In this document: piece after piece, positions 45,462-47,407 of the stretch | Position numbering within the stretch: the stretch's first letter is position 1 | How the letters are laid out: the number at the start of each line of letters is the position of its first letter | Origin: Caulobacter vibrioides OR37 | GTDB lineage: Bacteria; Pseudomonadota; Alphaproteobacteria; Caulobacterales; Caulobacteraceae | Assembly: GCF_000372645.1 (NCBI RefSeq) | Contig: NZ_APMP01000011.1 | Coordinates: forward strand, 1-64,000 | Direction of reading: 5' to 3' | DNA length: 64,000 bases | Program-made: the position numbers and the translations under genes | The notes under the pieces: model-generated | Databases searched by the model: none | What the model was told of the DNA's origin: nothing | Seen by the model: the letters and a program-made list of their open reading frames with translations, nothing else

Positions 45462-46742
45462 ATGACAGCAAGAATGGAAGCGGCGGCAACCGAACTCGGC
45501 GCTCCGGCGCCGGGAGCGGCGACGGTCCATCCATGGATCTTCCTCCCGCTGATGACGCCCTTCGGGGTTTCCAACGGCTATGCGACGGTGACGCTGGCCT
45601 TTCTTCTGGGACGCGCGGGCGTCAGCACGGTCCAAGTCACGGCGATCATGGCCGTGTGGTTTTGGGTTCAAACCTGGAAGGTCGCCTGGGCCCCGCTCAT
45701 CGACACGGTGGGCGACCCCCGACGCTGGTACGGACTGGGCGCGCTGCTGGTGGGCCTGTCGATCATCGCCATGAGCCTTGTCCGGCCGACGCCGGGGGCC
45801 GCCACGCTGCTGACCGGCCTCGTTGCGCTGTCCAGCGCCGCCGCGACCCTGGTGGCCATGTCGAGCGACGTCTTCCTGACCCATTTCGCGCCGCCGACCA
45901 TGCGCGGCCGCGCCAGCGGCTGGGCTCAGGCGGGGAATGTCGGTGGTTCGGGCGCGGGTGGCGGACTGGCTCTCCTGCTCGTCCAGCATGCCGGGCCGCC
46001 GCCCGTCGCCGCGCTGGCGCTCGCCGCGATCTGCGCGGCCTGCGCCCTCGTCGCCTGGCGCCTGCCGGCCTTGGCTATCGCGCGCGAAGCGCTGCACTAT
46101 CTGCGCCGATTGCACGCCGTTGTGGTCGATGTCTGGACCGTCGCGCGCTCCCGCACGGGCTATCTCGCCTTGGTCACCATGTTGCTGCCGATCGCGTCGG
46201 GCGCCGCGCCCTGGCCGGCCATCGCCGGCGAATGGCGTGCCGACGCCGACCTCGTCGCGCTGAGTAATGGGGTGATCGGCGGTCTTTGCGCCGCCGTGGG
46301 GTCGCTGCTCGGCGGACGTATTTGCGATCGGCTCACGCCCAAAAGCGCCTATGCGACCTTCGGACTCGCCAGCGGCGTCGTGGCCGTGGTCATGGCCTTT
46401 TCCCCGCGCACACAGACCGCTTTCCTGGTTTTTACGCTTGCCTATAGCACGATGATCGGCGCGGGTTTCGCGGCCTACTCAGCCACCGTTCTCGAGGCGA
46501 TCGGGAGGCGCTCGGCGGCGACCAACTTCAACCTTATGGGGGCGATCTCGAACGTGCCAATCGCGATGATGACCACCTTCGACGGGTGGATGCATGATCG
46601 CTTCGGAACCCGCGCCATGCTGTTCGGCGAGCTTTGGGTTCAGGTCCTGGCGGTTCTGTTCATCGCGGGTCTGTCGTTCGCGACCGCCTCGCGAGCGTCG
46701 TTCAAGCGCGGTATCGACTTGGCGGACACGACGTCGCCCTAG
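45462..46742 (+). CDS. MFS transporter
   Basis: 426 residues, about 12 hydrophobic helices. FGVSNGYATVTLAFLLGRAG in TM1-2, WKVAWAPLIDTV and the later ATNFNLMGAISNVPIAMMTTFDG resemble AmpG/acetyl-CoA-type MFS importers. Substrate unknown. It is separated from the homogentisate operon by 119 bases and converges on the candidate small RNA. Confidence 0.85.
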   Translation: MTARMEAAATELGAPAPGAATVHPWIFLPLMTPFGVSNGYATVTLAFLLGRAGVSTVQVTAIMAVWFWVQTWKVAWAPLIDTVGDPRRWYGLGALLVGLSIIAMSLVRPTPGAATLLTGLVALSSAAATLVAMSSDVFLTHFAPPTMRGRASGWAQAGNVGGSGAGGGLALLLVQHAGPPPVAALALAAICAACALVAWRLPALAIAREALHYLRRLHAVVVDVWTVARSRTGYLALVTMLLPIASGAAPWPAIAGEWRADADLVALSNGVIGGLCAAVGSLLGGRICDRLTPKSAYATFGLASGVVAVVMAFSPRTQTAFLVFTLAYSTMIGAGFAAYSATVLEAIGRRSAATNFNLMGAISNVPIAMMTTFDGWMHDRFGTRAMLFGELWVQVLAVLFIAGLSFATASRASFKRGIDLADTTSP

Positions 46743-46764
46743 CGCTCACCGGCGTCACGCGCAC

Positions 46765-46832
46765 AAAAGAACGGCCGCCCTCCAGGAGAAGAAGGCGGCC
46801 GAGTCATTGGGAGGAAACGCCCGAAAGGGCTG
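46765..46832 (-). ncRNA. Candidate small RNA, suhB/mmgR-like
   Basis: On the minus strand, CTATAT (46844-46839) is a good alphaproteobacterial -10, with GTTGTC 17 bases upstream as a -35. The predicted RNA starts near 46832. It has a small hairpin GCCC-TTTC-GGGC (46830-46819), then a single-stranded GTTTCCTCCC (46818-46809), then a terminator hairpin GGCCGCC/GGCGGCC (46800-46773) and GTTCTTTTG. A C-rich UUUCCUCCC between two stem-loops is the hallmark of the suhB/mmgR (alpha-r8) family as I recall it. Confidence 0.6.
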
Positions 46833-46860
46833 AATTCCATATAGCTGTTTGAATTTCGCT

Positions 46861-46874
46861 TGACAACGTTGTCA
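46861..46874. promoter_or_regulatory. Perfect 14-base palindrome TGACAACGTTGTCA
   Basis: Fully symmetric with a central CG, like LacI-family operators. It overlaps the -35 of the candidate small-RNA promoter on the minus strand. No LacI-type gene is in the window. Confidence 0.5.
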
Positions 46875-46918: not shown

Positions 46919-47407
46919 CTATTTGACCTTCTTGGCGGCCTGGACCTCGATCTCGACCAACATGCCCGGCTGGACCAGTGAGGCGACCTGGCTGGTGATG
47001 CGCGCCGGCTTGTTGGGCTGTTCGGCCGTGCCGAAGAAGGTCTTGTAGGCCTCCATCATGCCGGCGAAGTCCATCTTGCCGTCCTTGGCCGGGTCGCCGA
47101 CCAGGAGGACGCGCATCATCACGACGTCGGCCATGGTCGCGCCTTGGCTCTTCAGCGTGTCCTGGATGCGGGTCAGGACGCTCATCGTCTGGGTCTTGGT
47201 GTCGCCGCCGAACATGGCCGGACCCGTCGCGTCCTTGTTGACGACCGCCGGGGTGAGGCCGCTGACATAGATGGTCTCGTAGCCGGGCGGCACGGTGACG
47301 ACGCTGGCGATCGGCGACTTGGGATCGCCGCCGCGGACGATCTCCTGAGAATGGGCGGCGCCCGCGAGCGCGCAGAGGCCGACGGCGAGGGCGGCGAGGC
47401 GTTTCAT
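46919..47407 (-). CDS. Exported RidA family protein
   Basis: 162 residues with a signal peptide ending AHSQ (residue 21). The YjgF/RidA fold: VTVPPGYETIYVSG, IQDTLKSQGATMADVVMMRVLLVGD and PARITSQVASLVQPGMLVEIEV, with the Arg that holds the substrate carboxylate in cytosolic members at PAR. RidA proteins hydrolyse reactive imines. Last gene of an amine oxidase/cytochrome c/RidA run, all exported. Confidence 0.88.
   Translation of the reverse strand: MKRLAALAVGLCALAGAAHSQEIVRGGDPKSPIASVVTVPPGYETIYVSGLTPAVVNKDATGPAMFGGDTKTQTMSVLTRIQDTLKSQGATMADVVMMRVLLVGDPAKDGKMDFAGMMEAYKTFFGTAEQPNKPARITSQVASLVQPGMLVEIEVQAAKKVK

Follow-up and report, generated by a model that had tools for sequence, protein, structure and literature searches.

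A predicted GluR operator at the promoter of an alpha-r8 family small RNA in Caulobacter

The closest described relatives of the locus analysed here are SisA-D of Caulobacter crescentus (CCNA_R0014, R0133, R0143 and R0157), Hfq-bound small RNAs of the alpha-R8 family; by means of an anti-Shine-Dalgarno (anti-SD) 10-mer, SisA pairs with the ribosome sites of TonB-receptor and other mRNAs and represses them, and the starvation-induced CrfA sponges SisA and its family (PMC12559287). Members of the family in this species are expressed, bound by Hfq and engaged in pairing with mRNA ribosome sites (PMC12559287; PMC11005374). The siblings show distinct expression and have no promoter motif in common, and in the sections covered, this 2025 work leaves open the switch of each of the four near-equivalent sRNAs and names no sibling regulator; its main text contains none of the terms 'LacI', 'operator' and 'CC2053' (PMC12559287). 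MmgR of Sinorhizobium meliloti belongs to the same Rfam family, RF00519, also carries the anti-SD motif, depends on Hfq and is tied to carbon status (PMC7143759); it is a sole copy under positive control by NtrC and negative control by AniA (PMC12559287; PMC7143759), whereas a LacI-type sugar regulator is predicted for the small RNA considered here.

That regulator, GluR (CC2053), is encoded just downstream of zwf-pgl-edd-glk in Caulobacter and has been predicted to govern central sugar metabolism, with zwf-pgl-edd-glk and ppdK among its predicted targets; its release from DNA by glucose has been proposed, effector and mode of action both being predictions, and its paralogues are BglR1-3 (PMC4052901).

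Within the window, the whole 64-kb stretch of DNA analysed, a single gathering-level Rfam match was obtained with cmscan: RF00519 (suhB/mmgR) at 46758-46837 on the minus strand, scoring 46.5 bits against a gathering cut-off of 41 (E 2.1e-6 for the 64-kb window), with an alignment spanning the full model (positions 1-77 of 77). A suhB/mmgR-like, C-rich small RNA had been suggested here by an earlier sequence-only reading, which had named this covariance search as a check, and by its tested sequence and structure features the window sRNA is a member of the RF00519/alpha-r8 family. The minus-strand palindrome, promoter boxes, hairpin, unpaired C-rich segment and terminator hairpin with U-tract that the same reading had described could all be located in the sequence, and its placement between two convergent genes, an MFS gene (plus) and a Rid-family gene (minus), is confirmed. 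The sRNA it proposed stands, and the length of about 68 nt that it gave is replaced by 70-75 nt (about 46836-46764). The features of the locus are as follows.

45462-46742, plus strand: MFS gene, flanking the sRNA in convergent orientation.
46764-46836 (approximate), minus strand: predicted sRNA (alpha-r8/RF00519) of about 70-75 nt, its ends predicted, based on the RF00519 match and a fold z of -4.36.
46772-46801, minus strand: Rho-independent terminator hairpin of 12 bp, followed by UUCUUUUGU, conserved in 29 distinct aligned rows.
46783-46788, minus strand: CUCCUG in the terminator loop, a candidate second anti-SD motif, present in 41 of 41 orthologues.
46809-46817, minus strand: single-stranded anti-SD seed UUUCCUCCC, with UUUCCUCC invariant in 29 rows; the seed is unpaired with a mean probability above 0.8 in each of the 41 orthologues.
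46819-46830, minus strand: 5' hairpin GCCC-UUUC-GGGC, from the RF00519 alignment and the fold, with little variation in 29 rows.
46839-46845, minus strand: -10 box GCTATAT; in all 41 loci, the start of CTA(T/C)A follows that of GACA at a distance of 29 nt.
46861-46866, minus strand: -35 box TTGTCA, the right half of the operator, assigned from the sequence, with constant spacing to the -10 box in 41 of 41 loci.
46861-46874, no strand: 14-bp perfect palindrome TGACAACGTTGTCA, the predicted operator of GluR (LacI family), overlapping the -35 box.
46919-47407, minus strand: Rid-family gene (ridA), flanking the sRNA, which lies on the ridA strand.

The predicted fold of the sRNA has an energy of -33.4 kcal/mol (z -4.36), a stability equalled by 0 of 200 shuffles, and a terminator scan returned one terminator-like site against a shuffle mean of 0.4. 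Across 29 aligned rows, hand-picked from 34 distinct sequences after near-identical ones had been dropped, 94.9% of cells are paired. Four terminator pairs are altered on both sides, a number that 5 of 500 shuffles also attain, and 0 of 500 attain the whole-structure covariation score; in 12 of the 29 rows the outermost terminator pair is open. Covariation of both stems had been named as a check: it is seen in the terminator stem, while the 5' stem adds little because it scarcely varies and seven rows are one column out of register there. The C-rich loop, whose conservation had likewise been put forward, is upheld, its core being invariant in the 29 rows and unpaired in all 41 orthologues. The alpha-r8 10-mer UUUCCUCCCU is represented by UUUCCUCCC between the weak hairpin and the terminator, with A and not U as its last base, and some orthologues have UUUCCUCCUA at this position. 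In the terminator loop, CUCCU has a mean unpaired probability above 0.5 in 41 of 41 orthologues and is absent from the terminator region of all 47 other-class copies in 17 genomes that carry GluR; being complementary to AGGAG, it may be read as a class-specific second anti-SD motif.

The genome studied here (4.43 Mb) contains five RF00519 matches, four of them over the cut-off, and 59 of 61 surveyed genomes of the genus have between one and eight each, which sort by eye into promoter classes. With SisA-D, the window sRNA has in common the family, the UUUCCUCCC core after a weak hairpin, the terminator plan and the occurrence of several copies per genome; it differs in the CUCCUG of the terminator loop and the GluR-type operator of its class, and sisA-type copies have a 5' GUGAGGCG stretch with its own hairpin, both absent from the window class (by eye). 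The published neighbour of sisA is an N-formylglutamate amidohydrolase (FGase) gene (PMC12559287). In the present genome, the copy that adjoins such a gene (PF05013, E 3.6e-76) is L002 on contig C3, which is the sisA counterpart. Orthology of the window sRNA with sisA was accordingly rejected: the window copy lies between ridA and the MFS gene and belongs to another class, and it is probably an orthologue of SisB, SisC or SisD.

Other siblings were also recorded. The sub-threshold match L005 (G000:C6:122294-122371; 32.9 bits) is altered in its core, UUUCUUCCCC, and may represent a copy that has decayed or diverged. A third class (L133, L134, L151, L156, L214 and L215, also L004) has a common GGGAAGTTTTT upstream together with CTTGAA, followed mostly by CATAACT, by CATAGAT in L214 and by a deviating sequence in L004; these motifs possibly reflect another sigma factor or regulator.

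The palindrome, which the sequence-only reading left uninterpreted, is the most informative part of the locus. Within the window, TGACAACGTTGTCA has one exact match, and two matches with up to three mismatches against 0.88 expected. A generic sigma-70 scan called no promoter at the sRNA promoter region. The two boxes resemble the housekeeping type of Caulobacter (GCTANAWC) more closely than the E. coli consensus. Among 41 orthologues, of which 21 were obtained through fixed operator arms, five through a mostly fixed operator in the scan of the family and 15 through RF00519, the distance from operator to -10 box is identical in all, and in the 15-position linker that follows the operator, 11 positions hold less than 0.5 bit. 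A conserved operator and -10 box joined by a drifting linker resemble a regulated promoter, and the overlap of the operator with the -35 box at a fixed distance from the -10 box argues for steric repression. The invariance of the operator in this set is partly one of choice, since most of the orthologues were found, and all were cut out, by the operator core; the fairer conservation tests are retrieval by RF00519 only and a free-centre pattern run over 61 genomes.

Both of these tests return the operator, and its distribution follows that of GluR. Orthologues of GluR (at least 75% identity) occur in 38 of the 61 genus genomes, and these include all 21 of the 61 that matched a first, stricter pattern of operator plus sRNA core (control 0). 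The relaxed pattern GACA-N4-TGTC-N30-60-GTTTCCTCC matches 37 of the 61 genomes (reversed control 0 of 61), and 36 of these 37 matches consist of GACAACGTTGTC followed by the -10 box and the sRNA, though four central bases were left free. The match in G037 (GACATGGGTGTC) has neither the -10 box nor the sRNA, and was taken as chance. Operator and sRNA are present in 36 of the 38 genomes with a GluR orthologue against 0 of the 23 without, a contrast whose Fisher p of 8e-15 is too strong because the genomes are related. Furthermore, RF00519 copies were fetched from the 17 GluR genomes missed earlier, without use of the operator in the search; of 64 loci, 62 were used (L164 and L165 have no readable core), 15 of the 62 have CUCCU in the terminator loop, and all 15 carry TGACAACGTTGTC at the same place. 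Two GluR genomes depart from this pattern: in G057 (100% complete) no such sRNA copy is seen, and the similar copy of G016 (76% complete) lacks the operator (L142, by eye). Where the GluR homologue is only 66-68% identical (G009, G013, G024 and G050), the operator-sRNA unit is absent.

Wider scans located the unit mainly in the genus. Among 199 genomes of the family, 30 had a match (control 0), 29 of them in the own genus and one outside (G194), and a scan of named species gave 33 matching stretches: 18 in which the operator is exact and the match spans 66-67 nt (15 from Caulobacter and three from metagenome-assembled genomes assigned to Caulobacterales, Proteobacteria and Alphaproteobacteria), L080, and 14 from other taxa that were judged by eye to be chance. 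A distant-mode search of a plasmid collection gave no match. The copy outside the genus is alpha-r8-like, the same sequence being found at L080:5801-5879 (Phenylobacterium deserti) and at G194:C3:1829802-1829878; it has GACAACGCTGTC / TGACAACGCTGTCA upstream at a spacing different from that of the window class, and may be a parallel case or chance.

The operator also connects the sRNA with the glucose genes of its own genome, in which 12 sites have at most one mismatch to TGACAACGTTGTCA (reversed control 0). The surroundings of ten of the 12 were inspected, and the three exact sites lie before zwf, before a GluP-type glucose/galactose transporter gene (TIGR01272 match over the cut-off) and before the window sRNA, so that the operators of the sRNA and of zwf are identical in every letter. 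The order zwf-pgl-edd-glk is followed by a LacI-family gene with an operator site of its own; zwf, glk, the LacI-family gene and the transporter are supported by profiles, while pgl, edd and ppdK were assigned by eye. Twenty relatives were selected from the 38 GluR genomes, and all 20 have zwf, glk and gluR in that order, an unaltered TGACAACGTTGTCA preceding zwf and TGACA-N4-TGTCA where gluR begins. The regulon described for Caulobacter agrees in having the regulator gene after zwf-pgl-edd-glk, sites at both zwf and gluR, and a site at a ppdK-like gene; its listed members are protein genes only, whereas the window sRNA would be an RNA member (PMC4052901). Taken as sequence evidence, these sites support the assignment of the window sRNA to the predicted GluR regulon.

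Additional sites were noted around this regulon. The ppdK-like gene, identified by eye, also has an operator site, and one-mismatch sites adjoin other LacI genes, TonB receptors and a beta-glucosidase-like gene (names by eye). GACA-N4-TGTC also occurs farther upstream of seven copies of another class (L123, L124, L125, L127, L130, L131 and L132), judged by eye to be sisA-like in promoter and stem; these sisA-like promoters may also be acted on by GluR or one of its relatives.

The promoter site resembles that of a regulator of glucose breakdown, and the window copy is therefore probably made when glucose is available. We regard it as probable that the window sRNA is a GluR-repressed, glucose-induced alpha-r8 sibling that silences other uptake systems, and for this copy we infer GluR binding, repression, induction by glucose, use of Hfq and targets along the following lines. 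Without glucose, GluR would sit on the operator at the -35 box and block RNA polymerase; with glucose, it would leave, and the sRNA would be made alongside Zwf, Edd, Glk and the GluP-type transporter. Together with Hfq, the sRNA would then pair through UUUCCUCCC, and perhaps through the CUCCUG loop, with the ribosome-binding sites of other mRNAs and repress them, and so would give a 'glucose is here' decision its post-transcriptional arm. The starvation-induced sponge CrfA would oppose it, so that repression of uptake would last until CrfA appears. The lack of a common promoter motif among the published siblings is compatible with such an operator, because the operator would belong to one sibling. 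In the present genome, exact complements of the 9-nt seed lie 2-13 nt before an ATG at seven places, of which none is obviously a TonB receptor and which suggest no convincing theme; statements on targets consequently rest on the SisA literature.

Two other readings keep the regulated promoter and change what is done at the operator. The RNA could be a true alpha-r8 sibling with an operator that serves a BglR-type GluR paralogue responding to beta-glucosides, or several LacI proteins, the inducer being something other than glucose itself. With GluR as query, the genome yields nine matches, the regulator's own among them, at E 1e-40 or better; BglR1-3 may read near-identical sites, and the one-mismatch sites next to LacI, TonB-receptor and beta-glucosidase-like genes would suit such a reader. 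The identity of the sRNA operator with that of zwf, itself exact in 20 of 20 relatives, and the co-occurrence of the unit with GluR orthologues (36 of 38 genomes with one, 0 of 23 without) both speak for GluR, and we consider a paralogue unlikely to be the reader; the comparison of GluR with BglR considered the operator core alone, apart from its flanks. More improbable still is activation of the promoter by GluR, with synthesis of the sRNA in the absence of glucose. A dual role is predicted for PckR, which regulates central metabolism in Rhizobiales and is likewise of the LacI type (PMC4052901), and the site at the gluconeogenic ppdK-like gene could be read in the same way, but an operator that covers the -35 box at a constant distance from the -10 box occupies the position of steric repression.

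A further proposal would deny the sRNA a promoter of its own, taking the element for a terminator of ridA (or of the MFS gene) with at most a 3'-UTR product. It does follow ridA on their common strand, and the fetched flanks of 21 out of 36 distinct genomes contain ridA. The sRNA, promoter and operator are kept without ridA in the fetched flank in the other 15 of these 36, and the MFS gene is nearby in two of the 36, the present genome included (37 loci out of the 41 orthologues were counted as 36 genomes, L175 being a duplicate of L050, and some flanks end at contig ends). Since sRNA and promoter persist where ridA or the MFS gene is absent, the element is more than a ridA terminator, and the conservation of operator and -10 box across a mostly drifting linker, together with an RF00519 match over the cut-off, points the same way, so that we give this proposal hardly any credence. 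A GluR-repressed, glucose-induced sibling remains the reading that we prefer.

The RNA itself is a member of a known family, while its GluR wiring and terminator-loop motif are not described in the literature covered. A link between GluR and an alpha-r8 sRNA was not found in searches of the open-licence PMC literature, in which the key paper was covered by its text. If the link holds, the sRNA family would be a direct output of sugar repressors in alphaproteobacteria, a group that is not known to have catabolite repression of the E. coli type.

A second sibling class suggests how this wiring might extend. In the class of the C20 copy (L001, G000:C20:47867-47978; L016-L040), 25 of 29 loci have the 14-bp motif TG(T/G/A)TAGCG(C/G/T)TA(A/T/C)CA over the -10 box, at 53-55 nt ahead of the core; three of the remaining loci are one base off and one is of another class (30 loci were entered, L035 gave no core, and L041, though of another class, was kept among the 29). 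This motif is XylR-like and may be an operator of XylR. In C. crescentus, XylR is a repressor of the LacI family, and the xylX promoter contains its operator of 14 bp, the letters of which are not given there (PMC7198004).

Within the genome studied here, the XylR-like motif occurs at six places against two in the reversed control, so that the link of the C20 copy to XylR is weak from this genome alone. One of these sites lies between a LacI gene and a gene for an FAH-family protein (PDB match 9kkt, E 3e-235), which we take to be XylX-like, and another precedes an aldehyde dehydrogenase gene. Should the C20 motif be an XylR site, two siblings would answer to two sugars. A GluR-type operator on one sibling and an XylR-like motif on another would offer an answer to the question of the separate switches, namely that the copies differ in their activating sugar.

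More tentatively, and as a possibility on which we would not yet rely, the Sis siblings may be sugar-addressed: duplicated anti-SD RNA copies would have come under different LacI-type repressors (GluR and glucose here, an XylR-type protein and xylose for C20), each sugar muting the uptake of others at the RNA level, with the terminator-loop anti-SD motif widening or shifting the targets of the GluR copy. Sugar-addressed siblings of this kind would constitute an RNA route to catabolite choice. As a separate observation, the locus L012/L243 (G000:C9:11566-11628) has a one-mismatch GluR-like site and an XylR-like motif about 50 bp apart, measured from start to start.
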